Below are positions 5,201-49,998 of a stretch of 64,000 bases of DNA, piece after piece. The stretch spans positions 31,380,136 to 31,444,135 of the forward strand of contig OW028580.1 in assembly GCA_932294295.1 (NCBI GenBank), given 5' to 3'. Each line of letters starts with the position of its first letter. The first letter of the stretch is position 1. This DNA comes from Alitta virens (taxonomy: Eukaryota; Annelida; Polychaeta; Phyllodocida; Nereididae). Made by a program: the position numbers and the translations under genes. A model generated the notes under the pieces. It searched no databases. It was not told the origin of the DNA and saw only the letters and a list, made by a program, of their open reading frames with translations.

Positions 5201-8200
5201 GGATATCATAGACCAATCTCAGAGACATTTATATAGTAAAATACATGAACTTCAATGATCTCATGTTTGATTTTAAAATGATCTCATATTTTAATTACCA
5301 AATGATCTCAATTAAAAGACATCCACCATAATAATTGCTCCCTTGTGTTGAATAGTGACTGGATGCACAAGTCCACCACAATAAACATGATAAATATTGT
5401 ATTATATTGGCAGGTTTGTTGTCTACCTGAAGTTGAAATTTGTTCAAATTTAAATGCCCGGTAATCCCGCTTCCTGTCTCTTCGCCACTGTTCTTCATAG
5501 AAATTTGCTTTGACACCCATGTAGTATTTGCCTTTGAAGAACTCCACCCAGACATTCCACCCTTGCTCTTCTTTCAACCAACGTGTTGTGCAGAGATTGA
5601 TTAATGCCCCTCGTCTCGTCACAAATTCCTCATCTTTGATTCTATAAACAATTACATATATACATTAAATCATAAATTACTGGAACATCTATGCAGTGAC
5701 ATAATTAAGTTAAACATTTTATTTATTTTCATTTTGAGAGAAGATGGAAGGTATGCTCTAAGCCATGTGTAGAATAATATCATAAATGTTTGGTAATTAA
5801 AGTGTATATATGTACGTTTTAAAATTTTATAAGCTTTTGGACATATTTGTATTCAGGACATATCATGAGGGAAATTTTGGAAATTTGTGTTTTCCCAAAC
5901 TTCTACATCTCAACTATTATATCCTATATGCATGGAATTTTTGTTTAAAAATGTGTGAATCATAGTACTTTCACTTTCACTTTCAAAAAGTTTACATTTA
6001 TTTCATACTTTTTCATGATAATGGAAAATATGGAAAATTGCTCAAATTGAGTTGGATGCTACATTTCCTAAATGACATCCATATATACTATGGTACTGGA
6101 GGAATAACGTGTATACAATGTCATGACTAAATGACATCCATATATACTACGGTACTGGAGGAATAACGTGTTTACAATGTCATGACTAAATGACATCCAT
6201 ATATACTATGGTACTGGAGGAATAACGTGTATACAATGTCATGACTAAATGACATCCATATATACTATGGTACTGGAGGAATAACCTGTATACAATGTCA
6301 TGACTAAATGACATCCATATATACTATGGTACTGGAGGAATAACGTGTATACAATGTCATGACTAAATGACATCCATATATACTATGGTACTGGAGGAAT
6401 AACGTGTATACAATGTCATGACTAAATGACATCCATATATAATATGGTACTGGAGGAATAACCTGTATACAATGTCATGACTAAATGACATCCATATATA
6501 CTACGGTACTGGAGGAATAACGTGTATACAATGTCATGACTAAATGACATCCATATAAACTATGGTACTGGAGGACTAACCTGTATACAATGTCATGACT
6601 AAATGACATCCATATATACTATGGTACTGGAGGAATAACGTGTATACAATGTCATGACTAAATGACATCCATATATACTATGGTACTGGAGGAATAACAT
6701 GTATACAATGTCATGACTAAATGACATCTATATATAATATGGTACTGGAGGAATAAAGTGTATACAATGTCATGACTAAATGACATCCATATATACTATG
6801 GCACTGGAAGATTAACGTGTATACAATGTCATGACTAAAAGACATCCATATATACTACGGTACTGGAGGAATAACGTGTATACAATGTCATGACTAAATG
6901 ACATCCATATATACTACGGTACTGGAGGAATAACGTGTTTACAATGTCATGACTAAATGACATCCATATATACTATGGTACTGGAGGAATAACCTGTATA
7001 CAATGTCATGACTAAATGACATCCATATATACTAAGGCACTGGATGATTAACGTGTATACAATGTCATGACTAAATGACATCCATATATACTACGGTACT
7101 GGAGGAATAACGTGTATACAGTGTCATGACTAAATGACATCCATATATACTACGGTACTGGAGGAATAACGTGTATACAATGTCATGACTAAATGACATC
7201 CATATATACTACGGTACTGGAGGAATAACGTGTTTACAATGTCATGACTAAATGACATCCATATATACTACGGTACTGGAGGAATAACGTGTTTACAATG
7301 TCATGACTAAATGACATCCATATATAATATGGTACTGGAGGAATAACCTGTATACAATGTCATGACTAAATGACATCCATATATACTATGGTACTGGAGG
7401 AATAACGTGTATACAATGTCATGACTAAATGACATCCATATATACTACGGTACTGGAGGAATAACCTGTATACAATGTCATGACTAAATGACATCCATAT
7501 ATACTACGGTACTGGAGGAATAACGTGTTTACAATGTCATGACTAAATGACATCCATATATACTATGGTACTGGAGGAATAACGTGTTTACAATGTCATG
7601 ACTAAATGACATCCATATATAATATGGTACTGGAGGAATAACCTGTATACAATGTCATGACTAAATGACATCCATATATACTATGGTACTGGAGGAATAA
7701 CCTGTATACAATGTCATGACTAAATGACATCCATATATACTACGGTACTGGAGGAATAACGTGTATACAGTGTCATGACTTAATGACATCCATATATACT
7801 ATGGTACTGGAGGAATAACGTGTATACAATGTCATGACTAAATGACATCCATATATACTATGGTACTGGAGGAATAACCTGTATACAATGTCATGACTAA
7901 ATGACATCCATATATACTATGGCACTGGAGGATTAACGTGTATACAATGTCATGACTAAATGACATCCATATATACTATGGTACTGGAGGAATAACGTGT
8001 ATACAGTGTCATGACTAAATGACATCCATATATACTACGGTACTGGAGGAATAACGTGTATACAATATCATGACTAAATGACATCCATATATACTACGGT
8101 ACTGGAGGAATAACGTGTATACAATGTCATGACTAAATGACATCCATATATACTAAATGACATCCATATATACTATGGCACTGGAGGAATAACGTGTATA

Positions 8201-11200
8201 CAGTGTCATGACTAAATGACATCCATATATACTAAATGACATCCATATATACTATGGTACTGGAGGATTAACGTGTATACAATGTCATGACTAAATGACA
8301 TCCATATATACTACGGTACTGGAGGAATAACGTGTATACAATGTCATGACTAAATGACATCCATATATACTATGGTACTGGAGGAATAACCTGTATACAA
8401 TGTCATGACTAAATGACATCCATATATACTATGGTACTGGAGGAATAACGTGTATACAATGTCATGACTAAATGACATCCATATATACTATGGTACTGGA
8501 GGAATAACCTGTATACAATGTCATGACTAAATGACATCCATATATACTATGGTACTGGAGGAATAACCTGTATACAATGTCATGACTAAATGACATCCAT
8601 ATATACTATGGTACTGGAGGAATAACGTGTTTACAATGTCATGACTAAATGACATCCATATATACTATGGTACTGGAGGAATAATGTGTATACAATGTCA
8701 TGACTAAATGACATCCATATATACTATGGTACTGGAGGAATAACGTGTATACAGTGTCATGACTAAATGACATCCATATATACTACGGTACTGGAGGAAT
8801 AACGTGTATACAGTGTCATGACTAAATGACATCCATATATACTACGGTACTGGAGGAATAACGTGTTTACAATGTCATGACTAAATGACATCCATATATA
8901 CTAAGGTACTGGAGGAATAACCTGTATACAATGTCATGACTAAATGACATCCATATATACTATGGTACTGGAGGAATAACCTGTATACAATGTCATGACT
9001 AAATGACATCCATATATACTACGGTACTGGAGGAATAACGTGTTTACAATGTCATGACTAAATGACATCCATATATACTATGGTACTGGAGGAATAATGT
9101 GTATACAATGTCATGACTAAATGACATCCATATATACTATGGTACTGGAGGAATAACCTGTATACAATGTCATGACTAAATGACATCCATATATACTATG
9201 GTACTGGAGGAATAACCTGTATACAATGTCATGACTAAATGACATCCATATATACTATGGTACTGGAGGAATAACGTGTATACAATGTCATGACTAAATG
9301 ACATCCATATATACTATGGTACTGGAAGAATAACCTGTATACAATGTCATGACTAAATGACATCCATATATACTATGGTACTGGAGGAATAAAGTGTATA
9401 CAATGTCATGACTAAATGACATCCATATATATTACGGTACTGGAGGAATAACGTGTATACAGTGTCATGACTAAATGACATCCATATATACTACGGTACT
9501 GGAGGAATAACGTGTATACAATGTCATGACTAAATGACATCCATATATACTATGGTACTGGAGGAGTAACCTGTATACAATGTCATGACTAAATGACATC
9601 CATATATACTATGGTACTGGAGGAATAACGTGTATACAATGTCATGACTAAATGACATCCATATATACTATGGTACTGGAGGAATAACGTGTATACAGTG
9701 TCAGGACTAAATGACATCCATATATACTACGGTACTGGAGGAATAACGTGTATACAATGTCATGACTAAATGACATCCATATATACTACGGTACTGGAGG
9801 AATAACGTATATACAATGTCATGACTAAATGACATCCATATATACTAAATGACATCCATATATACTATGGCACTGGAGGAATAACGTGTATACAATGTCA
9901 TGACTAAATGACATCCATATATACTAAATGACATCCATATATACTATGGTACTGGAGGAATAACCTGTATACAATGTCATGACTAAATGACATCCATATA
10001 TTCTATGGCACTGGAAGATTAACTTGTATACAATGTCATGACTAAATGACATCCATATATACTATGGCACGAGAGGATTAACGTGTATACAATGTCATGA
10101 CTAAATGACATCCATATATACTATGGTACTGGAGGAATAACGTGTTTACAATGTCATGACTAAATGACATCCATATATACTATGGTACTGGAGGAATAAT
10201 GTGTATACAATGTCATGACTAAATGACATCCATATATACTATGGTACTGGAGGAATAACGTGTATACAGTGTCATGACTAAATGACATCCATATATACTA
10301 CGGTACTGGAGGAATAACGTGTATACAGTGTCATGACTAAATGACATCCATATATACTACGGTACTGGAGGAATAACGTGTTTACAATGTCATGACTAAA
10401 TGACATCCATATATACTAAGGTACTGGAGGAATAACCTGTATACAATGTCATGACTAAATGACATCCATATATACTATGGTACTGGAGGAATAACCTGTA
10501 TACAATGTCATGACTAAATGACATCCATATATACTACGGTACTGGAGGAATAACGTGTTTACAATGTCATGACTAAATGACATCCATATATACTATGGTA
10601 CTGGAGGAATAATGTGTATACAATGTCATGACTAAATGACATCCATATATACTATGGTACTGGAGGAATAACCTGTATACAATGTCATGACTAAATGACA
10701 TCCATATATACTATGGTACTGGAGGAATAACCTGTATACAATGTCATGACTAAATGACATCCATATATACTATGGTACTGGAGGAATAACGTGTATACAA
10801 TGTCATGACTAAATGACATCCATATATACTATGGTACTGGAAGAATAACCTGTATACAATGTCATGACTAAATGACATCCATATATACTATGGTACTGGA
10901 GGAATAAAGTGTATACAATGTCATGACTAAATGACATCCATATATATTACGGTACTGGAGGAATAACGTGTATACAGTGTCATGACTAAATGACATCCAT
11001 ATATACTACGGTACTGGAGGAATAACGTGTATACAATGTCATGACTAAATGACATCCATATATACTATGGTACTGGAGGAGTAACCTGTATACAATGTCA
11101 TGACTAAATGACATCCATATATACTATGGTACTGGAGGAATAACGTGTATACAATGTCATGACTAAATGACATCCATATATACTATGGTACTGGAGGAAT

Positions 11201-14200
11201 AACGTGTATACAGTGTCAGGACTAAATGACATCCATATATACTACGGTACTGGAGGAATAACGTGTATACAATGTCATGACTAAATGACATCCATATATA
11301 CTACGGTACTGGAGGAATAACGTATATACAATGTCATGACTAAATGACATCCATATATACTAAATGACATCCATATATACTATGGCACTGGAGGAATAAC
11401 GTGTATACAATGTCATGACTAAATGACATCCATATATACTAAATGACATCCATATATACTATGGTACTGGAGGAATAACCTGTATACAATGTCATGACTA
11501 AATGACATCCATATATTCTATGGCACTGGAAGATTAACTTGTATACAATGTCATGACTAAATGACATCCATATATACTATGGCACGAGAGGATTAACGTG
11601 TATACAATGTCATGACTAAATGACATCCATATATACTATGGTACTGGAGGAATAACGTGTATACAGTGTCATGACTAAATGACATCCATATATACTACGG
11701 TACTGGTGGAATAACGTGTATACAATGTCATGACTAAATGACATCCATATATACTACGGTACTGGAGGAATAACGTGTATGCAATGTCATGACTAAATGA
11801 CATCCATATATACTATGGTACTGGAGGAATAACCTGTATACAATGTCATGACTAAATGACATCCATATATACTATGGTACTGGAGGAATAACGTGTATAC
11901 AGTGTCATGACTAAATGACATCTATATATACTAAATGACATCCATATATACTATGGTACTGGAGGATTAACGTGTATACAATGTCATGACTAAATGACAT
12001 CCATATATACTACGGTACTGGAGGAATAACGTGTATACAATGTCATGACTAAATGACATCCATATATACTACGGTACTGGAGGAATAACGTGTTTACAAT
12101 GTCATGACTAAATGACATCCATATATACTATGGTACTGGAGGAATAACGTGTATACAATGTCATGACTAAATGACATCCATATATACTATGGTACTGGAG
12201 GAATAACCTGTATACAATGTCATGACTAAATGACATCCATATATACTATGGTACTGGAGGAATAACCTGTATACAATGTCATGACTAAATGACATCCATA
12301 TATACTATGGTACTGGAGGAATAACCTGTATACAATGTCATGACTAAATGACATCCATATATACTATGGTACTGGAGGAATAACGTGTATACAGTGTCAT
12401 GACTAAATGACATCCATATATACTACGGTACTGGAGGAATAACGTGTATACAATGTCATGACTAAATGACATCCATATATACTACGGTACTGGAGGAATA
12501 ACGTGTATACAATGTCATGACTAAATGACATCCATATATACTAAATGACATCCATATATACTATGGCACTGGAGGAATAACGTGTATACAGTGTCATGAC
12601 TAAATGACATCCATATATACTAAATGACATCCATATATACTATGGTACTGGAGGAATAACGTGTATACAGTGTCATGACTTAATGACATCCATATATACT
12701 ACGGTACTGGAGGAATAACGTGTATACAATGTCATGACTAAATGACATCCATATATACTACGGTACTGGAGGAATAACGTGCATACAATGTCATGACTAA
12801 ATGACATCCATATATACTAAATGACATCCATATATACTATGGCACTGGAGGAATAACGTGTATACAGTGTCATGACTAAATGACATCCATATATACTAAA
12901 TGACATCCATATATACTATGGTACTGGAGGAATAACGTGTATACAGTGTCATGACTTAATGACATCCATATATACTACGGTACTGGAGGAATAACGTGTA
13001 TACAATGTCATGACTAAATGACATCCATATATACTACGGTACTGGAGGAATAACGTGCATACAATGTCATGACTAAATGACATCCATATATACTAAATGA
13101 CATCCATATATACTATGGCACTGGAGGAATAACGTGTATACAATGTCATGACTAAATGACATCCATATATACTAAATGACATCCATATATACTATGGTAC
13201 TGGAGGAATAACGTGTATACAGTGTCATGACTTAATGACATCCATATATACTACGGTACTGGAGGAATAACGTGTATGCAATGTCATGACTAAATGACAT
13301 CCATATATACTACGGTACTGGAGGAATAACGTGTATACAATGTCATGACTAAATGACATCCATATATACTATGGTACTGGAGGAATAACCTGTATACAAT
13401 GTCATGACTAAATGACATCCATATATACTATGGCACTGGAAGATTAACGTGTATACAATGTCATGACTAAATGACATCCATATATACTATGGCACTGGAG
13501 GATTAATGTGTATACAATGTCATGACTAAATGACATCCATATATACTATGGTACTGGAGGAATAAAGTGTATACAGTGTCATGACTAAATGACATCCATA
13601 TATACTACGGTACTGGAGGAATAACGTGTATACAATGTCATGACTAAATGACATCCATATATACTACGGTACTGGAGGAATAACGTATATACAATGTCAT
13701 GACTAAATGACATCCATATATACTAAATGACATCCATATATACTATGGCACTGGAGGAATAACGTGTATACAATGTCATGACTAAATGACATCCATATAT
13801 ACTAAATGACATCCATATATACTATGGTACTGGAGGAATAACCTGTATACAATGTCATGACTAAATGACATCCATATATACTATGGCACTGGAAGATTAA
13901 CGTGTATACAATGTCATGACTAAATGACATCCCTATATACTATGGCACGAGAGGATTAACGTGTATACAATGTCATGACTAAATGACATCCATATATACT
14001 ATGGTACTGGAGGAATAACGTGTATACAGTGTCATGACTAAATGACATCCATATATACTACGGTACTGGTGGAATAACGTTTATACAATGTCATGACTAA
14101 ATGACATCCATATATACTACGGTACTGGAGGAATAACGTGTATACAATGTCATGACTAAATGACATCCATATATACTATGGTACTGGAGGAATAACCTGT

Positions 14201-17200
14201 ATACAATGTCATGACTAAATGACATCCATATATACTATGGTACTGGAGGAATAACGTGTATACAGTGTCATGACTAAATGACATCCATATATACTAAATG
14301 ACATCCATATATACTATGGTACTGGAGGATTAACGTGTATACTATGTCATGACTAAATGACATCCATATATACTACGGTACTGGAGGAATAACGTGTATA
14401 CAATGTCATGACTAAATGACATCCATATATACTATGGTACTGGAGGAGTAACCTGTATACAATGTCATGACTAAATGACATCCATATATACTATGGTACT
14501 GGAGGAATAACGTGTATACAATGTCATGACTAAATGACATCCATATATACTATGGTACTGGAGGAATAACCTGTATACAATGTCATGACTAAATGACATC
14601 CATATATACTACGGTACTGGAGGAATAACCTGTATACAATGTCATGACTAAATGACATCCATATATACTACGGTACTGGAGGAATAACGTGTATACAATG
14701 TCATGACTAAATGACATCCATATATACTACGGTACTGGAGGAATAACGTGTATACAATGTCATGACTAAATGACATCCATATATACTAAATGACATCCAT
14801 ATATACTATGGCACTGGAGGAATAACGTGTATACAGTGTCATGACTAAATGACATCCATATATACTAAATGACATCCATATATACTATGGTACTGGAGGA
14901 ATAACGTGTATACAGTGTCATGACTTAATGACATCCATATATACTACGGTACTGGAGGAATAACGTGTATACAATGTCATGACTAAATGACATCCATATA
15001 TACTACGGTACTGGAGGAATAACGTGCATACAATGTCATGACTAAATGACATCCATATATACTAAATGACATCCATATATACTATGGCACTGGAGGAATA
15101 ACGTGTATACAGTGTCATGACTAAATGACATCCATATATACTAAATGACATCCATATATACTATGGTACTGGAGGAATAACGTGTATACAGTGTCATGAC
15201 TTAATGACATCCATATATACTACGGTACTGGAGGAATAACGTGTATACAATGTCATGACTAAATGACATCCATATATACTACGGTACTGGAGGAATAACG
15301 TGCATACAATGTCATGACTAAATGACATCCATATATACTAAATGACATCCATATATACTATGGCACTGGAGGAATAACGTGTATACAATGTCATGACTAA
15401 ATGACATCCATATATACTAAATGACATCCATATATACTATGGTACTGGAGGAATAACGTGTATACAGTGTCATGACTTAATGACATCCATATATACTACG
15501 GTACTGGAGGAATAACGTGTATGCAATGTCATGACTAAATGACATCCATATATACTACGGTACTGGAGGAATAACGTGTATACAATGTCATGACTAAATG
15601 ACATCCATATATACTATGGTACTGGAGGAATAACCTGTATACAATGTCATGACTAAATGACATCCATATATACTATGGCACTGGAAGATTAACGTGTATA
15701 CAATGTCATGACTAAATGACATCCATATATACTATGGCACTGGAGGATTAATGTGTATACAATGTCATGACTAAATGACATCCATATATACTATGGTACT
15801 GGAGGAATAAAGTGTATACAGTGTCATGACTAAATGACATCCATATATACTACGGTACTGGAGGAATAACGTGTATACAATGTCATGACTAAATGACATC
15901 CATATATACTACGGTACTGGAGGAATAACGTATATACAATGTCATGACTAAATGACATCCATATATACTAAATGACATCCATATATACTATGGCACTGGA
16001 GGAATAACGTGTATACAATGTCATGACTAAATGACATCCATATATACTAAATGACATCCATATATACTATGGTACTGGAGGAATAACCTGTATACAATGT
16101 CATGACTAAATGACATCCATATATACTATGGCACTGGAAGATTAACGTGTATACAATGTCATGACTAAATGACATCCATATATACTATGGCACGAGAGGA
16201 TTAACGTGTATACAATGTCATGACTAAATGACATCCATATATACTATGGTACTGGAGGAATAAAGTGTATACAGTGTCATGACTAAATGACATCCATATA
16301 TACTACGGTACTGGTGGAATAACGTTTATACAATGTCATGACTAAATGACATCCATATATACTACGGTACTGGAGGAATAACGTGTATACAATGTCATGA
16401 CTAAATGACATCCATATATACTATGGTACTGGAGGAATAACCTGTATACAATGTCATGACTAAATGACATCCATATATACTATGGTACTGGAGGAATAAC
16501 CTGTATACAGTGTCATGACTAAATGACATCCATATATACTAAATGACATCCATATATACTATGGTACTGGAGGATTAACGTGTATACTATGTCATGACTA
16601 AATGACATCCATATATACTACGGTACTGGAGGAATAACGTGTATACAATGTCATGACTAAATGACATCCATATATACTATGGTACTGGAGGAGTAACCTG
16701 TATACAATGTCATGACTAAATGACATCCATATATACTATGGTACTGGAGGAATAACGTGTATACAATGTCATGACTAAATGACATCCATATATACTATGG
16801 TACTGGAGGAATAACCTGTATACAATGTCATGACTAAATGACATCCATATATACTACGGTACTGGAGGAATAACCTGTATACAATGTCATGACTAAATGA
16901 CATCCATATATACTACGGTACTGGAGGAATAACGTGTATACAATGTCATGACTAAATGACATCCATATATACTACGGTACTGGAGGAATAACGTGTTTAC
17001 AATGTCATGACTAAATGACATCCATATATACTATGGTACTGGAGGAATAATGTGTATACAATGTCATGACTAAATGACATCCATATATACTATGCTACTG
17101 GAGGAATAACCTGTATACAATGTCATGACTAAATGACATCCATATATACTATGGTACTGGAGGAATAACCTGTATACAATGTCATGACTAAATGACATCC

Positions 17201-19539
17201 ATATATACTATGGTACTGGAGGAATAACGTGTATACAATGTCATGACTAAATGACATCCATATATACTATGGTACTGGAGGAATAACGTGTATACAGTGT
17301 CATGACTAAATGACATCCATATATACTACGGTACTGGAGGAATAACGTGTATACAATGTCATGACTAAATGACATCCATATATACTACGGTACTGGAGGA
17401 ATAACGTGTTTACAATGTCATGACTAAATGACATCCATATATACTACGGTACTGGAGGAATAACGTGTTTACAATGTCATGACTAAATGACATCCATATA
17501 TACTACGGTACTGGAGGAATAACGTGTTTACAATGTCATGACTAAATGACATCCATATATACTACGGTACTGGAGGAATAACGTGTATACAATGTCATGA
17601 CTAAATGACATCCATATATACTATGGTACTGGAGGAATAACCTGTATACAATGTCATGACTAAATGACATCCATATATACTACGGTACTGGAGGAATAGC
17701 GTGTTTACAATGTCATGACTAAATGACATCCGTATATAATATGGTACTGGAGGAATAACCTGTATACAATGTCATGACTAAATGACATCCATATATACTA
17801 TGGTACTGGAGGAATAACCTGTATACAATGTCATGACTAAATGACATCCATATATACTACGGTACTGGAGGAATAACGTGTATACAGTGTCATGACTTAA
17901 TGACATCCATATATACTATGGTACTGGAGGAATAACGTGTATACAATGTCATGACTAAATGACATCCATATATACTATGGTACTGGAGGAATAACCTGTA
18001 TACAATGTCATGACTAAATGACATCCATATATACTATGGCACTGGAAGATTAACGTGTATACAATGTCATGACTAAATGACATCCATATATACTATGGCA
18101 CTGGAGGATTAACGTGTATACAATGTCATGACTAAATGACATCCATATATACTATGGTACTGGAGGAATAACGTGTATACAGTGTCATGACTAAATGACA
18201 TCCATATATACTACGGTACTGGAGGAATAACGTGTATACAATGTCATGACTAAATGACATCCATATATACTACGGTACTGGAGGAATAACGTGTATACAA
18301 TGTCATGACTAAATGACATCCATATATACTAAATGACATCCATATATACTATGGCACTGGAGGAATAACGTGTATACAGTGTCATGACTAAATGACATCC
18401 ATATATACTAAATGACATCCATATATACTATGGTACTGGAGGAATAACGTGTATACAGTGTCATGACTTAATGACATCCATATATACAACGGTACCGGAG
18501 GAATAACGTGTATACAATGTCATGACTAAATGACATCCATATATACTACGGTACTGGAGGAATAACGTGTATACAATGTCATGACTAAATGACATCCATA
18601 TATACTAAATGACATCCATATTTACTATGGCACTGGAGGAATAACGTGTATACAATGTCATGACTAAATGACATCCATATATACTAAATGACATCCATAT
18701 TTACTATGGCACTGGAGGAATAACGTGTATACAATGTCATGACTAAATGACATCCATATATACTAAATGACATCCATATATACTATGGTACTGGAGGAAT
18801 AACGTTTATACAGTGTCATGACTTAATGACATCCATATATACTACGGTACTGGAGGAATAACGTGTATGCAATGTCATGACTAAATGACATCCATATATA
18901 CTACGGTACTGGAGGAATAACGTGTATACAATGTCATGACTAAATGACATCCATATATACTATGGTACTGGAGGAATAACCTGTATACAATGTCATGACT
19001 AAACAGTCCAGTGAATTATCATGAAATGGTAGCTGTCTATCATTCCCATAAATATGGTAGCGGTAGGAGAGCTACCATCAAACAGTAATGCTCTACTGTT
19101 ACTAAATTCTGGTAGCGTTTGCAGTTCTTTACTAATATGTTAGATGGCAGCAGTATCCACTTGAAAAGGGGTGATTTAGATCTTTATCAGGGATGATTGA
19201 CACCAGCTGATGCTGAGTGTTCAACCCCCTCCCTTCACCTCTCTGTGATTCCACCCCCTCCAGCTTGTCACCCCTCCAGTAGCAGCTGATAGCCACATCT
19301 TTATCATGTACAATATATTGGTATCATTTAAGGATGGGGTTTTAGAAATTCTCCATGGAAGTTTGAGAAATTTTCTATCACACAACCCATTCATTATTTG
19401 TATATACAGACACGAAACTATTTAAGCAGAAATCTAAAATGTTTGTTTAACATTGATAAATATTAAATATTAAAGGTTACAATCACATTTTTATCTTCTT
19501 CTCTTTTTTGATTGCAAACAACCAATTAATCAATCAATG

Positions 19540-19570
<31 letters not shown>

Positions 19571-22500
19571 TATAAATCTAACTATTAATCAGTCAGTCTA
19601 ACTATCAATCAATCAATCAATCAAACTATCAATCTATCAATCAATCAAACTATCAATCAATCAATCTGTCTGTCTAACTATCAATCAATCTATATATCAA
19701 TCAGTCAATCAATCGAACTATCAATCAATTGAACTATCATTCAATCAATCTAACTATCAATCAATCCATTAATCAAACTATCAATCAATCAAACTAGCAA
19801 TCAATATGTCTGTCTATCAAACCATCAATCAATCAATCTATCTATATATCAATCAATCAATCAATAAATCTTACTATCAATCAATCTATCTATCCATCCA
19901 TACATCTATCAATCAATCAATCGAACTATCAATCAACCAATCAACCGAACTATATATCAATCAGTCTACCTATCAATCAATCAATCTTACTATCAATCAA
20001 TCCATCTATCAATCAATTAATCAATCCAAATAGAAACCAATCAATCAAACTATCAATCAATCAATCTAAATATCAATCTATCTATCTATCTATCTATCTG
20101 TCTGTCTGTCTGTCTGCCTGTCTAGCTGTCATGCTAGCTGTCTGTCTGTCTGTCTGTGTATCAAGCTATTATGCAGTGTGTGAAATATCATTATATAAGT
20201 TACTGTCATTCTTTCTCTTTAATCAATTTAACAATCAATCATTCTATCTAACTATCTATCTATTTATCATCCATCCTTCTATCTATCTATCTATAAAGCA
20301 ATATATCTGCTATTTCATTTTGACTGACAGGTTATTTCAAAAATCTTAAACCTTGAAGAAATTACATCATCCAGACAACCTTACCATTATGACTACCTTG
20401 CTATAAAGACCACTTCATTGTTAGGCCATCTGCAGACCAACTTACTATCAAGACCTCACTAATAAGGCCACCTCATTACTGACTACCTCACTGTTAAGAC
20501 TACCTTGCCACTAAGATCAGCTTATTATTCAGACCACCTCACTATTGAGACCACCTCTGAAATAGGCCACCTTACCATAAAGACCACTTTTACCAATTAT
20601 TGACCTCCTAACTGTTAAGACCAACTTACTATTGAGGCCGCCTTACAGTATTATAGCACCTGGCATACTACCTTACAATTTAACAACCTTGCAATTGGGA
20701 TCAGCAATGCAAGGTTGGCATGATGCTATTATGGAACCACAACATGATTTACAAATTAATTCAATCACTATATTTGCTGGTCATTATCTAATCTATGCTT
20801 GCAAATGGATTTATCTCTTCACATGTAATCAAGATTGTAATAACTTGGTTATTAAATTTTAGTTCTAGTTTCAAAGTTGGCAAGAGTTGTTTTCTTGGTC
20901 ATTGGATAACACAAGTGTATCAAGAAAATACATGCAAAATGACACCAAACATGATACATATTTCATAATCCAGACAGAGGAAAAATGTGTATACAAAATG
21001 TAGTAAATATTGGTTGGCCTACACTGCCGTTTTACCTGGTAGTGCCTGCAATTTCTAGTTCAAAGTTTTTGCCCGCTAAAGTGGTTCACTGACGCATCAG
21101 GAAGGAATTTCTGTTAGTCATGTGAAAAAAAAAAATTCTAAGATGTCAACAAATGGATTACCTTTAAACAGACATGGATACTTCACCACCATTTGGCTGG
21201 CTCTGGAGTTAAAACCCGACACAGATGGCTGGCCCTTTCAAAGAGAAGCTTGGCTTCAAAACAGAAATTAAGTCCCTTGTCAAGGCCCCCAGCTGCATAT
21301 GCAGTGCCAATGTGTGTAATGCTAAAGCCATGTATGCCTCTTCTTCAGGTTTAGATATTTTATTAACACTTTTTCATGTATTTCGAAAAACAAAAACAAG
21401 TTCATAGGCAGGGTGCATACAAGGGTGAGTCAGTCAGTCAGTCAGTTACTTACATTTTGCTACATTATGACATTTATATTTCCATCTAAATCCTAACATA
21501 AACATTTGTGGTGACTCAAGACCATTTTGCATAAAACAAAACCAATCTGGCATGAAGAATGGATTGAATCAGGTAGTGCTGGCTTCCACTTTCTTGACCT
21601 ATGTACGTAAGAATTTATTTATTTTGAATTCCCACACAAATGTTATCAGATTATTATAGGCATTATGATAATTTTTAGGCTATAGACATGGTAATTTGTT
21701 ACGATGAATTAATCCAAGTATATTTCACCATTGAGCAAAGGTTATTACATACAATATGTTCGAGGCATTTTTATGCTTCATGTTTAGATGGCCCCTACTT
21801 CTATAAGTCAGAGCAAGGATCTCATCATGTGTCTTGGGCTAAATCATTAGGGACCATCTCAAAACGATAAACTGCTGAGAATTTGTAGTTTTTAGAAACT
21901 TTCTACTTTTTATCAGAAGTTATATAAATCAGTTTATCTATATAATTATTAATATAACATGTTAAAGTACACTTACTTTATACCCAGATAGCATTCCAAA
22001 TCGGGCAAGCGTCATTTCTACATTGTTTTGACAGATAAAATCAAAGTCTTAAAATCTATAAAATCTAATTAAAATGAAGTCAACTGATTTACATAGGCCA
22101 TAAGTCTTGACAACGCTAGCTGGACAGCACCTGTGTTTAAAACTACAGTGTCTAGGAGGGGACATAGACATTATTTTCATATCTCTTTCCAACGAGAAAA
22201 AAATTGTTTTAAGGAGAAAGTAAATTGTTCTAATGAGAAAGTAAATTGTTCTGATGAGATATTATCTCCTTTTATCTCTTTAAAACTAGATACCATCTCG
22301 TTTGAACGAAATAATATCTCGTTCTAGCAAAATAACATCTGGTTGTAAAGATAAAGTATCTTGTCCTGACGAAAAACTAAGTTGTTCTCGTTTGTACAAG
22401 ATAGTTTTTGGTTGGAACAAGATATTATTTTAGCATTAATTTGCTAGAATGAGATATTATCTCATTTGACCAGATAGTTTTTCGTTGGGAAAATATGTTA

Positions 22501-25500
22501 ACTCCTTAGAACGAGATATTTTCAAAAAAAAGTCCATGTCCCCTCTAGAAAACTGACACTGACGTGTTTTTCCTTTAGTGGGGAGGTAAGCCATTCCAAA
22601 GCAAGGTATTATTGAATGAGTCTAATTATGTTTAACAAGAACAATTTTGGATGGAGACAATTCAGAGAAGTACAGATAGATAGTTAGATAGACATACAGA
22701 TGGACAGATAGATAGACAGACAGACTCACAGATAGACAGCTAGACAGATAAATAGACAGATATTTAGGCTGATAAATAGATAGATAAAAATATAGATAGA
22801 TAGATAGACAGATGGACAGATAGACAGACAGAAACACAGATAGACAGCTAGACAGATAAATAGACAGATATTTAGGCTGATAAATAGATAGATAAAAATA
22901 TAGATATAAAGATAGATAGATAGATAGACAGATACACAGATAGATAGAGACAGATATACAGAGATAGATAGACAGATAGATAAATAGACAGATAGATAAT
23001 TACATAGATAACTAGATAGATAGTTAGATAGATAGACATAGGGTGATAGATGGTAAGATAATAAGATAGATAGATAGATAGATAGATGGATAGATAATTA
23101 GATAGATAGATAGATAGACAGGCAGATAGATAAATAATAAGGTAGACAGATAAATAGACAGATCTAAATAGATAGACAGATAGATAGACAGTAAATAAAT
23201 AGATAGACAGATAGATAGATAATAAGATAGACAGATAAATAGACAGACAGATAGACAGAAATATTGATAACAAGATAGACAGATATAGATAGATAGACAT
23301 AATTAGATAGATAGACATATAGATAGATAGACACATAGACATATAGATAGATAGATTAGAAGAATAATGTGATATTAACAGTGAGGTGGTCTTTTGTAAC
23401 AGTGATAGTGAGGTGTTATAGTGAAGCGGTCTTAAAGTGGTCTTTTTGGTATATGCCCGTGGAGGGGGGGGGGGGGCACTTATGACTAGATTCCAGTTTT
23501 CGGATTAGCTTATACAGTGTACATACTGAGGTTAAATATGATCAATCAATCAATCAGTAAATCAGTCCAGCAATCCATCCACCCATTTATCTATCTATCT
23601 ATCTTTCTTTCTTATTTCTATCTTTTTTTCTTTCTTATTAATTTCTATCTTTCTACTTTTCATTTTTTCTTTCTTTCATTCTATCTTTAAATCTATCTTT
23701 CTTTATATCTTTCTTTTTCTTTCTTTCTATCTTTCTTTCTATCCATCTTTCTTTCTTTCTTTCTTACTTTCTTTCTATCTTTCTCTATCTTTGATCTTTC
23801 TTTCTTACCTTGTTTCTATCTTTCTTTCTTTCTTACCTTGTTTCCATCTTTCTTTCCATCTTTCTTTCTATCTTCCTCTCTTTCTTTCTTTCTTTCTTTT
23901 CCATCTTTCTTTCTTTCTAACTTTCTTTCTATCTTTCTATCTTTGATCTTTCTTTCTTACCGTGTTTCCATCTTTCTTTCCATCTTTCTTTCTATCTTTC
24001 TATCTTTGATCTTTCTTTCTTACCGTGTTTCCATCTTTCTTTCCATCTTTCTTTCTATCTTCCTATCTTTCTTTCTTTCTTTCTTTCTATCTTTCTTTCT
24101 TTCTTTCTTTCTATCTTTTTTATTTTATTTTCCTGTTCTGTAATACGTTTTTACCCTTCACACTAACTTGTACATTATTAATATGCATTATAATTATTAT
24201 TACTAATTTACATTTTATATAATTTTTTTCAGTGAACATTGTTTAAAATAAAATGAAGTTCCTTTAATTGTGACAGATATCTAGCAAACAAGCTTAAACA
24301 GCCATTTAATTGTGAACTTTATTATTAAGACAAGAAACTGAGTTGATGAGGCTAACTTATCAAAGGAGAGAGATATCATCATAATGTACACTGCTATCTG
24401 AATATAGTAGACACCGGGTCAAGGGGTGTCCAGCTGATAGTTGAGAGGGCAGTCAAAGAAGGGGGGGGGGTGTTAATTGGCTATCAGATAAGAGAGGAAT
24501 GTCTTTGCCTGACCTCTGGGGTGAAATTGACAAACTATGACAGGCTATTAAGAGGGGTAAACTTCTATCATTACCATTCTGTCGGAAACGCTACAAATTA
24601 TGAAAACAAACTGTTACGAGCACTTTTTTCCCCTTACGATCACTTTTGATGAAAAAAATCATGAGTAAACTAGAGACACTGGTTCAACTTTTAGTGATGG
24701 TTTGGGGTCGATAGGGCAACTAGAACATATTCAGAATCACGTTTAAAGGTGAAAATGAGCCTCAGAGCGTTACCACAGAAGTGTAGCTGTTGCTGCCTGC
24801 CTGCCTATCATTACCAATTAAATGGTAGCGCTAGAGCGCTACTATTTCGTGATAATTCACTCGACTGCTAAATGACATCCATATATACTATGGCACTGGA
24901 AGATTAACGTGTATACAATGTCATGACTAAATGACATCCATATATACTATGGCACTGGAGGATTAACGTGTATACAATGTCATGACTAAATGACATCCAT
25001 ATATACTATGGTTTTCGAGGAATAACGTGTATACAGTGTCATGACTAAATGACATCCATATATACTACGGTACTGGAGGAATAACGTGTATACAATGTCA
25101 TGACTAAATGACATCCATATATACTACGGTACTGGAGGAATAACGTATATACAATGTCATGACTAAATGACATCCATATATACTAAATGACATCCATATA
25201 TACTATGGCACTGGAGGAATAACGTGTATACAATGTCATGACTAAATGACATCCATATATACTAAATGACATCCATATATACTATGGTACTGGAGGAATA
25301 ACGTGTATACAGTGTCATGACTTAATGACATCCATATATACTACGGTACTGGAGGAATAACGTGTATACAATGTCATGACTAAATGACATCCATATATAC
25401 TATGGTACTGGAGGAATAACCTGTATACAATGTCATGACTAAATGACATCCATATATACTATGGCACTGGAAGATTAACGTGTATACAATGTCATGACTA

Positions 25501-28500
25501 AATGACATCCATATATACTATGGCACGAGAGGATTAACGTGTATACAATGTCATGACTAAATGACATCCATATATACTATGGTACTGGAGGAATAACGTG
25601 TATACAGTGTCATGACTAAATGACATCCATATATACTACGGTACTGGAGGAATAACGTGTATACAATGTCATGACTAAAAGACATCCATATATACTACGG
25701 TACTGGAGGAATAACGTGTATACAATGTCATGACTAAATGACATCCATATATACTAAATGACATCCATATTTACTATGGCACTGGAGGAATAACGTGTAT
25801 ACAATGTCATGACTAAATGACATCCATATATACTAAATGACATCCATATATACTATGGTACTGGAGGAATAACGTGTATACAGTGTCATGACTTAATGAC
25901 ATCCATATATACTACGGTACTGGAGGAATAACGTGTATGCAATGTCATGACTAAATGACATCCATATATACTACGGTACTGGAGGAATAACGTGTATACA
26001 ATGTCATGACTAAATGACATCCATATATACTATGGTACTGGAGGAATAACCTGTATACAATGTCATGACTAAATAACATCCATATATACTATGGCACTGG
26101 AAGATTAACGTGTATACAATGTCATGACTAAATGACATCCATATATACTATGGCACTGGAGGATTAACGTGTATACAATGTCATGACTAAATGACATCCA
26201 TATATACTATGGTTTTGGAGGAATAACGTGTATACAGTGTCATGACTAAATGACATCCATATATACTACGGTACTGGAGGAATAACGTGTATACAATGTC
26301 ATGACTAAATGACATCCATATATACTACGGTACTGGAGGAATAACGTATATACAATGTCATGACTAAATGACATCCATATATACTAAATGACATCCATAT
26401 ATACTATGGTACTGGAGGAATAACGTGTATACAATGTCATGACTAAATGACATCCATATATACTAAATGACATCCATATATACTATGGTACTGGAGGAAT
26501 AACGTGTATACAGTGTCATGACTTAATGACATCCATATATACTACGGTACTGGAGGAATAACGTGTATACAATGTCATGACTAAATGACATCCATATATA
26601 CTATGGTACTGGAGGAATAATCTGTATACAATGTCATGACTAAATGACATCCATATATACTATGGCACTGGAAGATTAACGTGTATACAATGTCATGACT
26701 AAATGACATCCATATATACTATGGCACGAGAGGATTAACGTGTATACATTGTCATGACTAAATGACATCCATATATACTATGGTACTGGAGGAATAACGT
26801 GTATACAGTGTCATGACTAAATGACATCCATATATACTACGGTACTGGAGGAATAACGTGTATACAATGTCATGACTAAATGACATCCATATATACTACG
26901 GTACTGGAGGAATAACGTGTATACAATGTCATGACTAAATGACATCCATATATACTAAATGACATCCATATATACTACGGTACTGGAGGAATAACGTGTA
27001 TACAATGTCATGACTAAATGACATCCATATATACTATGGTACTGGAGGAATAACCTGTATACAATGTCATGACTAAATGACATCCATATATACTAAATGA
27101 CATCCATATATACTATGGTACTGGAGGAATAACTTGTATACAGTGTCATGACTAAATGACATCCATATATACTATGGTACTGGAGGAATAAAGTGTATAC
27201 AATGTCATGACTAAATGACATCCATATATACTACGGTACTGGAGGAATAACGTGTATACAATGTCATGACTTAATGACATCCATATATACTACGGTACTG
27301 GAGGAATAACGTGTATACAATGTCATGACTTAATGACATCCATATATACTACGATACTGGAGGAATAACGTGTTTACAATGTCATGACTAAATGACATCC
27401 ATATATACTATGGTACTGGAGGAATAAAGTGTATACAATGTCATGACTAAATGACATCCATATATACTACGGTACTGGAGGAATAACGTGTATACAGTGT
27501 CATGACTAAATGACATCCATATATACTATGGCACTGGAGGATTAACGTGTATACAGTGTCATGACTAAATGACATCCATATATACTATGGTACTGGAGGA
27601 TTAACGTGTATACAGTGTCATGACTAAATGACATCCATATATACTACGGTACTGGAGGAATAACGTGTATACAATGTCATGACTAAATGACATCCATATA
27701 TACTACGGTACTGGAGGAATAACGTGTATACAGTGTCATGACTAAATGACATCCATATATACTACGGTACTGGAGGAATAACGTGTATACAATGTCATGA
27801 CTAAATGACATCCATATATACTAAATGACATCCATATATACTATGGTACTGGAGGAATAACGTGTATACAGTGTCATGACTAAATGACATCCATATATAC
27901 TACGGTACTGGAGGAATAACGTGTATACAATGTCATGACTAAATGACATCCATATATACTACGGTATTGGAGGAATAACGTGTATACAATGTCATGACTA
28001 AATGACATCCATATATACTAAATGACATCCATATATACTATGGTACTGGAGGAATAACGTGTATACAGTGTCATGACTAAATGACATCCATATATACTAC
28101 GGTACTGGAGGAATAACGTGTATACAATGTCATGACTAAATGACATCCATATATACTACGGTACTGGAGGAATAACGTGTATACAATGTCATGACTAAAT
28201 GACATCCATATATACTAAATGACATCCATATATACTATGTCACTGGAGGAATAACGTGTATACAATGTCATGACTAAATGACATCCATATATACTATGGT
28301 ACTGGAGGAATAACCTGTATACAATGTCATGACTAAATGACATCCATATATACTAAATGACATCCATATATACTATGGTACTGGAGGAATAACGTGTATA
28401 CAGTGTCATGACTTAATGACATCCATATATACTATGGTACTGGAGGAATAACCTGTATACAATGTCATGACTAAATGACATCCATATATACTATGGCACT

Positions 28501-31500
28501 GGAAGATTAACGTGTATACAGTGTCATGACTAAATGACATCCATATATACTATGGCACTGGAGGATTAACGTGTATACAGTGTCATGACTAAATGACATC
28601 CATATATACTATGGTACTGGAGGAATAATGTGTATACAGTGTTATGACTAAATGACATCCATATATACTATGGTACTGGAGGAATAACCTGTATACAATG
28701 TCATGACTAAATGACATCCATATATACTATGGTACTGGAGGAATAACGTGTATACAATGTCATGACTAAATGACATCCATATATACTATGGTACTGGAGG
28801 AATAACGTGTATACAGTGTCATGACTAAATGACATCCATATATACTATGGTACTGGAGGAATAACCTGTATACAGTGTCATGACTAAATGACATCCATAT
28901 ATACTGCGGTACTGGAGGAATAACCTGTATACAGTGTCATGACTAAATGACATCCATATATACTATGGTACTGGAGGAATAACCTGTATACAGTGTCATG
29001 ACTAAATGACATCCATATATACAACGGTACTGGAGGAATAACGTGTATACAGTGTCATGACTAAATGACATCCATATATACTACGGTACTGGAGGAATAA
29101 CGTGTATACAGTGTCATGACTAAATGACATCCATATATACTACGGTACTGGAGGAATAACGTGTATACAGTGTCATGACTAAATGACATCCATATATACT
29201 ACGGTACTGGAGGAATAACGTGTATACAGTGTCATGACTAAATGACATCCATATATACTACGGTACTGGAGGAATAACCTGTATACAATGTCATGACTAA
29301 ATGACATCCATATATACTACGGTACTGGAGGAATAACCTGTATACAATGTCATGACTAAATGACATCCATATATACTACGGTACTGGAGGAATAACGTGT
29401 ATTCAATGTCATGACTAAATGACATCCATATATACTATGGTACTGGAGGAATAACCTGTATACAGTGTCATGACTAAATGACATCCATATATACTACGGT
29501 ACTGGAGGAATAACCTGTATACAGTGTCATGACTAAATGACATCCATATATACTACGTTACTGGAGGAATAACGTGTATACAGTGTCATGACTAAATGAC
29601 ATCCATATATACTACGGTACTGGAGGAATAACGTGTATACAGTGTCATGACTAAATGACATCCATATATACTACGGTACTGGAGGAATAACGTGTATACA
29701 GTGTCATGACTAAATGACATCCATATATACTACGGTACTGGAGGAATAACGTGTATACAGTGTCATGACTAAATGACATCCATATATACTACGGTACTGG
29801 AGGAATAACGTGTATACAATGTCATGACTAAATGACATCCATATATACTACGGTACTGGAGGAATAACGTGTATACAGTGTCATGACTAAATGACATCCA
29901 TATATACTACGGTACTGGAGGAATAACGTGTATACAGTGTCATGACTAAATGACATCCATATATACTACGGTACTGGAGGAATAACGTGTATACAGTGTC
30001 ATGACTAAATGACATCCATATATACTACGGTACTGGAGGAATAACGTGTATACAGTGTCATGACTAAATGACATCCATATATACTACGGTACTGGAGGAA
30101 TAACGTGTATACAGTGTCATGACTAAATGACATCCATATATACTATGGTACTGGAGGAATAACGTGTATACAGTGTCATGACTAAATGTCATCCATATAT
30201 ACTACGGTACTGGAGGAATAACGTGTATACAGTGTCATGACTAAATGTCATCCACATATACTACGGTACTGGAGGAATAACGTGTATACAGTGTCATGAC
30301 TAAATGTCATCCACATATACTACGGTACTGGAGGAATAACGTGTATACAGTGTCATGACTAAATGACATCCATATATACTACGGTACTGGAGGAATAACG
30401 TGTATACAGTGTCATGACTAAATGACATCCATATATACTACGGTACTGGAGGAAAAACGTGTATACGATGTCATGACTAAATGACATCCATATATACTAC
30501 GGTACTGGAGGAATAACCTGTATACGATGTCATGACTAAATGACATCCATATATACTACGGTACTGGAGGAATAACCTGAATACAATGTCATGACTAAAT
30601 GACATCCATATATACTACGGTACTGGAGGAATAACCTGTATACAATGTCATGACTATATGACATCCATATATACTACGGTACTGGAGGAATAACGTGTAT
30701 ACAATGTCATGACTAAATGACATCCATATATACTATTGTACTGGAGGAATAACGTGTATACAATGTCATGACTAAATGACATCCATATATACTATGGTAC
30801 TGGAGGATTAACGTGTATACAATGTCATGAATGTTGTAAATTTTAATGGCTCATTTTCACACTACAAGACTTTACATTCATGACAAAAATGCACCTCAAT
30901 AATTACCATCCATGCTATGATGCCCTTTTAAAATTACATTGCAATCGATTTTTTATTTCGGACCCCCATAAATAAGGTCACATGTCGATACTAAAAATGT
31001 GTACACTCAGACCAAAATTCATTGCACACTTTTCTCAAATTGGCCAATGGTATGCTGCCGAAGAAGCCTATGTTTGTATATGCATTGCAATAGTTTTCTC
31101 TGGTATATGCTTTATAATAAAAGTAATCAAATACTTTTTACAATAAAGTAATCAAATACTTTTTACAATAATAATGACTTCACCTAATCCAGGTTATCAT
31201 GTAGCACTTAATGGTATGTATGTATTCAAATTAAAAAATTCTTTGGATAGGATAGGATAGGATAGAATAGGATGGGATGGGATAGGATAGGACAGGATCA
31301 TGGATCACTTTCTGAGCCAGCAAATTGCACTTAATAATGACGGTCCACTTATTTCTAGGTGGATAATATCATTATTATGAATATTGCTGGTTCTTAATAT
31401 ACTTAGTTATGATTCATGTTAGTACAACTTGTGTGCCCAAGCATACATATAACCAGCAATCTTAATTGCACTTGTTACTGGAGGTTTTCTTTTGTTTTAT

Positions 31501-32327
31501 ACCACTTCTGCCTGTGCACTGGAGCATATCACTACTTGGCTCACAGCCAACTGGTTACCAGTTAGCTAATAATGTTAAATCTCTCAAGCGCAATCTGCAA
31601 AGATTCAGCTTCAACTGACTGCATGTGGGTATGTTTTGTAAACTATCTATTTGCATGGTTTGGTGAAGAATTGGTGTGGCATGTTTACTTTCCTATACAT
31701 TTTCTAAAGGCTATTAATATACTTTTTTTGAGTAGACTTCGAAACTTTCTGCACTTCACGACCTCTGACGTGGCCTACAGATTCAACACGATCCATTAAG
31801 ATGCACCCCGATCATAAAGCGGACTTTTGACGACGCCTGACGAATTTGCTAGTCATGATAGATTGTCGTCAAAATCGCATAGGTGTCAACTAGGCTTCAG
31901 GCGATGAACACGGCATGTTAGGGTGTGCCAAGGAGATGGAGAAAATTGATACATAAATATTGTCACTTAGCATGCTGATTATGCACAGCAGAAGTTTTCA
32001 CAGTTTTGCCCATATAAGGCCAGTTTTGTTACCATTTACTCACCTGGAGGGGTCCAGCAGTATCCATTGGAGAATTCGGGTGAGATCATTACTGAATTTT
32101 TCTGTTTCTTTTCGATGAAAAGACTCAAAACCTTCTTCAAGGTTAGACTTGAGATATTGCTTTGGATTGGCATAATACTTCAGCTGGGATTGATCCGGAA
32201 TAAATTCATCATTTGCATCAACGGAGAAGAAGCCCGCTTCCTGAGGATCATGATATTTTGTTTCCGTGTCACCTGGGGTTTTTGAAGTGTCCACGTCTGT
32301 CAGAATTTGCAAAGAACTCTCAGCCAT
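2156..32327 (-). CDS. DXO/RAI1-family decapping exoribonuclease, copy A (exons 1-5, 3' end off window)
   Basis: Five minus-strand exons (32327-32044, 5641-5427, 5148-5038, 2640-2547, 2288-2156) join in frame into about 279 residues. Visible family features, in order, are an N-terminal part with FSVDANDEF and NLEEGFESF, then [28 protein letters not shown], the metal-binding pair EID and ELK, RWWLQSY and a GF turn. Known members of this family remove aberrant or non-canonical 5' caps from RNA and degrade the RNA 5'-3'; that role here is inferred. Exons 6-7, present in copies B and C, are not seen in 1-2155 and should lie further left. The usual GYKFE motif reads AFKFE here. Exon order follows the colinear copy B. 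Intron 1 is about 26.4 kb and mostly satellite. No stop or frameshift is seen in the five exons, so this copy may be functional. Confidence 0.82.
2547..2640 (-). CDS. DXO-like copy A, exon 4 (EID / ELK metal site)
   Basis: The exon reads [20 protein letters not shown], then [12 protein letters not shown] across the junction. EID and ELK are the characteristic acidic and lysine catalytic residues of DXO/RAI1 enzymes. To keep the frame set by exon 3, the acceptor must be GTTTAAG at 2641-2647. The AG seven bases further in (TTTTCAG) would shift the frame. The donor is GTATGT. Confidence 0.8.
2782..4062. mobile_element. hAT-like non-autonomous DNA transposon in copy A intron 3
   Basis: This interval is flanked by a perfect 8-bp direct repeat ATGATGGG (2774-2781 and 4063-4070). 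The matching place in copy B, near 48377-48384, has a single ATGATGGG and no insert. The ends read TAGACCCTAAAGCC and, reverse-complemented, TAGATCCAGAAGCC, agreeing at 11 of 14 positions. An 8-bp duplication with TAG-type ends fits the hAT superfamily. No transposase is encoded. The inside holds AGCC-rich segments near both ends and a 19-bp tandem repeat. Confidence 0.72.
3617..3693. repeat. 19-bp tandem repeat, four units
   Basis: The unit ACCACAGATTATATATAAG occurs four times in a row, the last with one change (ACTACAG) and an altered end. The same words occur once outside the hAT-like insert near 4230, in the copy A intron. Confidence 0.85.
4071..5037. other. Copy A intron 3, paralogous to copy B
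   Basis: There is no coding exon here. The stretch aligns along its length with 48385-49320 of copy B, which marks the segmental duplication. The overlapping short open frames in both copies (for example around 4047-4259) are not conserved as protein, so I treat them as intronic. Confidence 0.6.
5038..5148 (-). CDS. DXO-like copy A, exon 3
   Basis: This 111-nt exon has acceptor TTTTCCATGCAG and donor GTAATC. It reads [16 protein letters not shown] and then [17 protein letters not shown], matching the conserved 'D-PG---D-S--VN-N--F--VL--RL' block of the family. Copy B has the same exon at 49431-49321 with several substitutions (VNNSPSFYRML). Confidence 0.82.
5427..5641 (-). CDS. DXO-like copy A, exon 2
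   Basis: This 215-nt exon has acceptor TTTATAG and donor CAG/GTAGAC. It completes the Arg codon split at exon 1 and reads [17 protein letters not shown], then a Trp-rich stretch ([21 protein letters not shown]), ending [13 protein letters not shown] and KFEQ match conserved positions of the DXO fold; the Glu of KFE is expected to help bind the catalytic metals. Copy B exon 2 has exactly the same length. Confidence 0.85.
5642..6067. other. Left end of copy A intron 1 before the satellite
   Basis: Intronic sequence with similarity to copy B intron 1 (for example GAGAGAAGATGGAAGG at both 5739 and 50452). It leads into the satellite at 6068 without any recognisable element end. Confidence 0.55.
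8605..11634. repeat. 1515-bp higher-order repeat, two copies
   Basis: Rare monomer variants recur exactly 1515 bp apart: TCAGGAC at 9701 and 11216, and CATATATTCTATGG (its TTCTATGG part) at 10001 and 11516. The length equals 25 monomers of 59 bp plus two 20-bp extra blocks. Boundaries are approximate. Confidence 0.85.
12410..16900. repeat. 2245-bp higher-order repeat, two copies
   Basis: Private variants recur exactly 2245 bp apart: GTGCATAC at 12781 and 15026, CACGAGAGG at 13946 and 16191, CTGGTGGAATAACGTTT at 14066 and 16311, and ACTATGTC at 14341 and 16586. The length equals 35 monomers plus nine 20-bp blocks. A 276-bp sub-repeat (four monomers plus two 20-bp blocks) lies inside each copy. 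Outer boundaries are approximate. Confidence 0.87.
18999..19003. repeat. Target site duplication CTAAA, left
   Basis: CTAAA precedes the left terminal repeat of the nested transposon and is repeated at 24868-24872. Removing the insert and one copy restores the normal monomer junction ATGACTAAATGAC. Confidence 0.9.
19525..20160. repeat. (ATCA)n / (TCTA)n / (TCTG)n microsatellite tract
   Basis: This is a degenerate tract of CAATCAATCAAT and TATCAATCTATC words that turns into clean TCTA repeats and then TCTG repeats near 20075-20155. The Gln/Ser/Ile-rich open frame at 19806-20033 is only a translation of this tract. Confidence 0.93.
20370..20645. repeat. Degenerate minisatellite of AAGACCACCTCACTAT type
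   Basis: About a dozen diverged units of roughly 20-25 bp share ACCACCTCACT or ACTACCTT followed by TAAGACC. Reverse-complement units (GTGAGGTGGTCTT) occur near 23380-23450 in the same transposon, so the family lies inverted in its two halves. Confidence 0.75.
20646..22140. other. Unique centre of the nested transposon, no gene
   Basis: Non-repetitive AT-rich sequence. Open frames at 20632-20862, 21225-21407 and 21688-21870 are 60-76 codons with no recognisable motif. I see no transposase signature. Confidence 0.5.
22144..22563. mobile_element. Foldback MITE-like element with internal palindromes
   Basis: The ends are inverted: ACAGTGTCTAGGAGGGGAC on the left and, reverse-complemented from the right, CAGTGTCAGTTTTCTAGAGG continuing GGACATGGAC. 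Between them are many diverged short palindromes of the type AACGAGATATTATCTCGTT. The element is about 0.4 kb, non-coding, and sits inside the larger transposon. No clear target duplication was identified. Confidence 0.7.
22672..23362. repeat. (GATA)n/(GACA)n microsatellite
   Basis: About 690 bp of AGATAGATAGACAGATA-type repeats. A segment near 22680-22780 is partly duplicated near 22800-22890 (both contain TATTTAGGCTGATAAATAG). The 156-codon minus-strand open frame here (poly Ser-Ile-Tyr-Leu) is a repeat artefact. Confidence 0.95.
23540..24125. repeat. (TTTC)n/(ATCT)n microsatellite
   Basis: A pyrimidine-rich tract of CTTTCTTTCTAT words, preceded by a short CAATCAATC run. A block containing TTTGATCTTTCTTTCTTACC repeats three times (about 23790, 23943 and 24006). 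The Phe/Leu/Ser-rich open frames are artefacts. Confidence 0.95.
24868..30830. repeat. 59-bp satellite array, right block
   Basis: The satellite continues in the same orientation and phase after the transposon, ending at GTCATGA before ATGTTGTAAATTTTAATGG. A 1201-bp higher-order repeat (19 monomers plus four 20-bp blocks) is visible: GGTTTTSGAGG at 25011 and 26212, CACGAGAGG at 25524 and 26725. From about 28800 to 30450 units are nearly uniform and enriched for the TACGG and ACAGTG variants, suggesting recent homogenisation at this end. Confidence 0.97.
30831..32043. other. Right part of copy A intron 1
   Basis: No exon is seen. The segment 31570-31730 aligns with 50745-50940 in copy B intron 1 (shared GCAAAGATTCAGCTTCAA and GAATTGGTGTGGCATGTTTA), placing the satellite at a site that is only about 0.3 kb long in copy B. 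Short tandem duplications of AGTAATCAAATACTTTTTAC occur near 31120-31170. Confidence 0.65.
31244..31298. repeat. (GGATA)n microsatellite
   Basis: About eleven copies of GGATA with a few changes (GAATA, GGATG, GGACA). Confidence 0.92.
32044..32327 (-). CDS. DXO-like copy A, exon 1
   Basis: The exon encodes 94 codons plus two bases, beginning [16 protein letters not shown] and ending [10 protein letters not shown]. The donor is GTGAGT directly after CCAG. The ATG is chosen because copy B aligns from the same methionine and because upstream similarity becomes non-coding. An AG (CCACAACAG) two bases before the ATG could be an acceptor for a 5' UTR exon, so this may not be the first transcribed exon. 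Copy B exon 1 is one codon shorter and about 75 percent similar in protein. Confidence 0.8.
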
Positions 32328-40351: not shown

Positions 40352-40354
40352 ACA

Positions 40355-49948: not shown

Positions 49949-49998
49949 CTATAAACAATTACATATATACACTAAAATCATAAATTGCTGGATCATCA

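Follow-up and report, generated by a model that had tools for sequence, protein, structure and literature searches.

The stretch of DNA analyzed here (the window: 64,000 nt of contig OW028580.1 of Alitta virens) carries on its minus strand a gene with a RAI1/DXO domain in several copies. The first intron of one of them (copy A) holds a long satellite array that is absent from the neighboring copy B, and the question raised by this locus is how the array came to be there and whether it was gained by copy A or lost from copy B. The account given below is that a non-coding satellite grew in intron 1 of one gene of a tandem cluster of DXO/RAI1-like decapping exonucleases, and taken as a whole it is held with considerable confidence.

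In total, at least three neighboring DXO/RAI1-like copies could be recognized in the window, namely A, B and a partial copy C. Copy A was modelled as follows:

32044..32327, minus strand: copy A exon 1, coding part from the ATG (Pfam RAI1, gene model)
5642..32043, minus strand: copy A intron 1, 26,402 bp (gene model)
5427..5641, minus strand: copy A exon 2 (Pfam RAI1, gene model)
5038..5148, minus strand: copy A exon 3 (gene model)
2547..2640, minus strand: copy A exon 4 (match to solved DXO, gene model)
2156..2288, minus strand: copy A exon 5 (match to solved DXO, gene model)

The RAI1 Pfam profile (PD-(D/E)XK domain) exceeded its cut-off in all four exons scanned, which were exons 1 and 2 of copies A and B. 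The comparison of copy A exons 1–5 with solved DXO proteins resulted in a best match of 6e-27 over residues 25–268, with vertebrate DXO giving the best matches and the alignment running through AEIDC, VELKT and WWLQS; the query protein of this comparison and of the search for relatives contained one extra alanine at the border of exons 2 and 3. The active site of DXO is taken by us to consist of acidic and lysine residues (E-x-D, E-x-K) followed by W-W-x-Q. Among 258 candidate protein relatives of copy A, none was found at E 0.001, and a PDB search with exon 1 of copy B gave no match.

Copy A comprises 837 coding bases without a stop in five exons, which start at an ATG and have gt/ag borders, so that it looks intact as far as it is readable. 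The first-pass annotation had described the gene as still looking intact, and this holds for exons 1–5; exons 6 and 7 had no match in the window among the tblastn matches listed, the window beginning about 2.2 kb past exon 5.

Within intron 1 of copy A, as placed by the gene model, homogeneous units are arranged head to tail over kilobases. The array and its parts are:

6068..18998, no strand assigned: satellite array, part one, consisting of 59-bp units interspersed with 20-bp short ones (TRF, unit spacing)
19004..24867, no strand assigned: inserted element of 5,864 bp whose ends are inverted copies, flanked by CTAAA and containing long CAAT, AGAT and TCTT microsatellites (end alignment, TRF)
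24868..30830, no strand assigned: satellite array, second part (TRF, unit spacing)
8569..11660, no strand assigned: exact 1,577-bp duplicate (8569–10145 and its copy), lag 1,515 bp (self-comparison)
12395..16177, no strand assigned: exact 1,538-bp duplicate (12395–13932 and its copy), lag 2,245 bp (self-comparison)

TRF reported the 59-bp array at 6068–19003 and 24868–30830. From 348 unit starts, 347 steps were obtained, of which 304 are 59 bp and 42 are 20 bp long, while the one remaining step, of 5,928 bp, crosses the element inserted there. The satellite thus amounts to 18,894 bp, made up of 306 full-length (59-bp) and 42 short (20-bp) units, in good agreement with the roughly 300 repeat units counted earlier. 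The short units are extra copies of the first third of the 59-bp unit (its first 20 bases) and 41 of the 42 are identical; as read from the sequence, the 59-bp unit has ACTA at both positions where a slip producing them would join.

The 304 scored units of full length (all but the last one and the one preceding the insertion) comprise 74 distinct sequences and on average deviate from the consensus by 1.7 substitutions. Their mean pairwise difference is 4.6%, and that of neighbors is hardly lower (3.9% at lag 1). The exact block duplicates point to recent growth of the array by exchange or duplication of multi-unit blocks, and unequal exchange or duplication of such blocks would be the way in which the array grew.

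Outside the array, the 59-bp unit was not found in the window, where the best other match covers 20 bp at 90%. The term satellite is used here for one array in a 64-kb window and in its strict sense would require abundance throughout the genome. No exact 24-mer of the satellite was present in a viral contig or a genome contig collection, both non-animal, and the searched literature contained none of three 15- to 17-mers taken from the unit.

A protein-coding array was rejected, since 59 is not divisible by three and the satellite has no listed frame of at least 90 aa; the array would accordingly be without a coding role. Structural RNA units were rejected as well, with no Rfam family at the gathering score and unremarkable folding. 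On the two strands, the fold z values were -0.50 and -0.44 for one unit and -1.83 and -1.31 for two units, and the two-unit folds were beaten by 6 and 22 of 200 shuffles.

The 5.86-kb element that interrupts the satellite had been overlooked in the first-pass annotation, as had the third copy C and the broken state of the array-free copy B. Of its 24 terminal bases, 22 are alike as inverted copies, and the 5-bp target duplication CTAAA stems from the satellite unit. Judged by these ends, the segment 19004–24867 is a DNA-transposon-like insertion with terminal inverted repeats and a target-site duplication. Since it inserted into one unit and duplicated the CTAAA of that unit, the insertion is later than the array.

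No transposase could be assigned to the inner element by a Pfam search of 76 of the 141 open frames of at least 62 aa outside arrays and microsatellites; most of the remaining frames were overlapping ones. The DDE and MADF profile matches of this frame scan belong to 38.9–42.1 kb and not to the inner element. A weak PARG match (6.3e-4 among the 76 frames) was absent from ten frames scanned singly, and a match to a lentiviral protein (0.0053, among 76 frames) was taken as chance.

The exact duplicates of more than 1.5 kb are difficult to assemble, so that the size or the placement of the array might be wrong. Such an artefact is improbable: the edges of the array and the junctions of the inner element are clean, with a target duplication that derives from the unit itself, and the gene reads in order on both sides of the array.

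To the right of the array, a GGATA microsatellite and a 28-bp imperfect inverted repeat are located. They would agree with an array that is the swollen center of a Helitron- or Helentron-like mobile element, and satellite-like repeats carried by such elements have been described in the oyster, as far as the available excerpt of that report goes (PMC7492417). However, no paired ends were found around the array, where the best alignments between the flanks score 23–24, and the oyster arrays in the same excerpt mostly have up to five monomers and at most 29, of 140–180 bp (PMC7492417). An origin as the center of a mobile element is therefore regarded as unlikely.

The neighboring copies show a different picture:

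53246..53526, minus strand: copy B exon 1 (Pfam RAI1, gene model)
49949..53245, minus strand: copy B intron 1, 3,297 bp, without satellite (gene model)
49734..49948, minus strand: copy B exon 2 (Pfam RAI1, gene model)
49321..49431, minus strand: copy B exon 3 (gene model)
48149..48242, minus strand: match to exon 4 in copy B, no AG directly before it (sequence match to copy A)
47798..47889, minus strand: remains of copy B exon 5, 92 bp (borders accurate to 1–2 bases)
47284..47367, minus strand: copy B exon 6, matched part (tblastn, among the matches listed)
46067..46168, minus strand: copy B exon 7, matched part (tblastn)
61412..61495, minus strand: copy C exon 6, matched part (tblastn, among the matches listed)
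58288..58389, minus strand: copy C exon 7, matched part (tblastn)

Copy C is partial (58.3–61.9 kb) and resembles copy B up to position 61,890; among the tblastn matches listed, none of its exons before exon 6 lies in the window.

Copy B is disrupted at two sites. At the border of its exon 4 it reads aaattg, without an AG, where copy A has the acceptor tttaag, and its exon 5 measures 92 bp as compared to 133 bp in copy A, due to a frameshifting 41-bp deletion that removed the codons of 14 residues. With these two defects, copy B was rejected as a second working copy coding for a full enzyme, at least as its sequence predicts. The start of exon 4 in copy A fits solved DXO (ILFSAEIDC versus PLLFSGEVDC), and the form of copy A is therefore likely to be older than that of copy B.

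The first introns of the two copies differ strongly in length, with 26,402 bp in copy A versus 3,297 bp in copy B, which matches the spacing of exons 1 and 2 given previously (26.4 kb versus 3.3 kb). The location of the array inside the former and its absence from the latter were confirmed. The copies are colinear on both sides of the array, with 5734–5762 corresponding to 50449–50477 (29 bp) and 31591–31691 to 50788–50898 (82% over 111 columns). Between these anchors lie about 25.8 kb in copy A and about 0.31 kb in copy B, again as had been proposed. The 25.8 kb are made up of about 19 kb of satellite, the 5.86-kb inserted element and about 1 kb of flank, and the flank likewise is without a clear counterpart in copy B.

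When the flanks in copy A were compared with intron 1 of copy B, two of eight comparisons exceeded all 60 shuffles. One is the left flank on the plus strand (107 versus a maximum of 90 in the shuffles), which includes the 29-bp anchor, and the other is a weak, inverted match of 31690–32000 on the minus strand (69 versus a maximum of 63). Homology of the flanks to this intron was thus rejected as unconvincing. In copy B, neither the segment enclosed by the anchors nor some 2.3 kb on the exon 1 side has a clear counterpart in copy A. The poor match between the anchors indicates that the introns of A and B were remodelled separately, and neither state can be read as the ancestral one.

Aligned intron sequences of copies A and B differ at about 6.3–6.6% of positions (89 of 1,424 or 110 of 1,678, depending on the stretches taken). 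In intron 3 of copy A, about 1.3 kb at 2782–4062 is missing from copy B and is likely an insertion; a 46-bp direct repeat (3589–3634 and 4199–4244) lies in and just past this segment. Exons 1–4 of the two copies differ at 72 of 701 positions, compared to 110 of 1,678 in the introns (Fisher p 0.002, and 0.023 without CpG-linked changes; the comparison covers 2289–5641 and 32044–32327 versus 47890–49948 and 53246–53526). Rapid coding change or the decay of copy B could contribute to this excess.

It had been concluded from the aligned copies that the array arose or expanded after the duplication. This conclusion is not supported, since the window contains no outgroup intron and copy B could have lost the array; as far as two copies can tell, gain and loss would fit equally well. 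An ancestral array that predates the duplication and was lost as copy B decayed and its intron was trimmed is thus a real, if less probable, alternative. It agrees with the two lesions of copy B and with the remodelling of its intron 1 between the anchors and towards exon 1. On the other hand, no remnant of the unit was seen in copy B, and the difference between the units (4.6%) does not exceed that between the introns of the two copies. The latter comparison is uninformative on age because of homogenisation: together with the exact block duplicates, it speaks for recent turnover and not for a recent origin. Both a gain in the lineage of copy A and a loss from copy B are possible, and a gain or large expansion in copy A is favored, short of proof.

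The satellite would be transcribed within the pre-mRNA of copy A and then spliced out, on the assumption that splicing across the array takes place, and it would persist because introns tolerate length. In this context, the acceptor-like 12-mer TTATTCCTCCAG was counted 256 times in the array in the sense strand of the gene and was absent from the remainder of that strand in the window. The density of acceptor-like sites is 12.3 per kb in the sense strand of the array (232 sites), compared to 0 in the antisense strand, 6.6 in the base-shuffled array, 4.5 in intron 1 of copy B and 4.6 in other DNA of the window; the rule applied is crude, passing two of copy A's own four acceptors, and base composition alone yields half the rate. 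Hundreds of acceptor-like sequences in the sense strand might burden splicing, and at this density any expression of copy A would carry a risk of mis-splicing into the array.

The regularity of the unit length was considered as well. None of the 346 unit steps within 6068–30830 deviates from 59 or 20 bp, despite 56 distinct substitution variants. The introns of A and B show 17 indels per 89 substitutions, and under a shared ratio the chance of finding no indel in the array is 2.5e-4, a value that takes the variants as independent, leaves out the 20-bp units and serves as a lead only. An array whose unit length or acceptor-like motif is maintained and which regulates the splicing of copy A would account for this constancy, for the strand bias of the acceptor-like sites, for the 256 copies of TTATTCCTCCAG in the sense strand, and for the fact that the array-bearing copy A stayed open while the array-free copy B decayed. 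Nevertheless, the motifs of any amplified unit become repeated, so that amplification alone would yield as many acceptor-like sites, and the limits of the indel estimate and the unremarkable folding further speak against such a role, which is considered very unlikely.

Intronic satellites are already known, and the array in copy A is a real and well-formed further example. The available excerpt on Drosophila describes satellite DNA in the gigantic introns of the Y-linked genes kl-3 and kl-5 (PMC6508621). The likeness lies in introns filled with satellite, which require transcription and splicing across them; there, however, the satellites are short and simple, extend over megabases of the Y and go along with a spermatocyte expression program, whereas the present array is known from sequence as 19 kb of 59-bp units in a single paralogue. 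Among human tandem arrays of more than 10 kb, several lie within an intron according to the part of that study available (PMC2588610); organism and repeats differ, and the array-free neighboring paralogue permits a comparison here. For introns on avian dot chromosomes, the excerpt at hand describes sequence stuttering, an expansion by local tandem blocks that are tens to hundreds of bases long (PMC12954441), which affects many introns and genes and is less organized and GC-rich, in contrast to the single, very regular array of about 35% GC in one intron reported here.

The central repeats of oyster Helentrons, as far as they are covered by the excerpt, resemble the array as satellite-like tandem repeats away from heterochromatin but have element-specific ends and up to 29 monomers (PMC7492417); no such ends were found here by alignment of the flanks. 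For beetles, the excerpt of the respective paper describes introns as enriched in satellite repeats, which mostly occur singly (PMC5844308). The excerpt on C. elegans lists 10 DXO homologues, six of them clustered in tandem (PMC7735679); tandem duplication of DXO-family genes is thus shared with another lineage, and a satellite is not mentioned in that excerpt. In literature searches that covered this among other subjects, no intronic satellite in a DXO gene was found.

With introns that diverged by about 6.5% and one copy without the array, the neighboring paralogues form a natural pair for assessing the cost or effect of a 19-kb intronic satellite, and the defects of the array-free copy reduce the value of this comparison. 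An effect of the array on splicing, or a constraint on its length, would be relevant to the persistence of satellites in introns; failing that, the locus is a neat case of array growth through block duplication.

Elsewhere in the window, a DDE_Tnp_4 transposase (minus strand) and a Myb/SANT-MADF-like protein (plus strand, below the Pfam cut-off) are located at 38981–42650, with 21-bp repeats nearby. This element, which we take to be Harbinger/PIF-like, contains an inverted repeat of units of about 26 bp at 40845–41114. At the right end of the window (62890–63350), direct repeats whose units resemble TTGACCCC are clustered.
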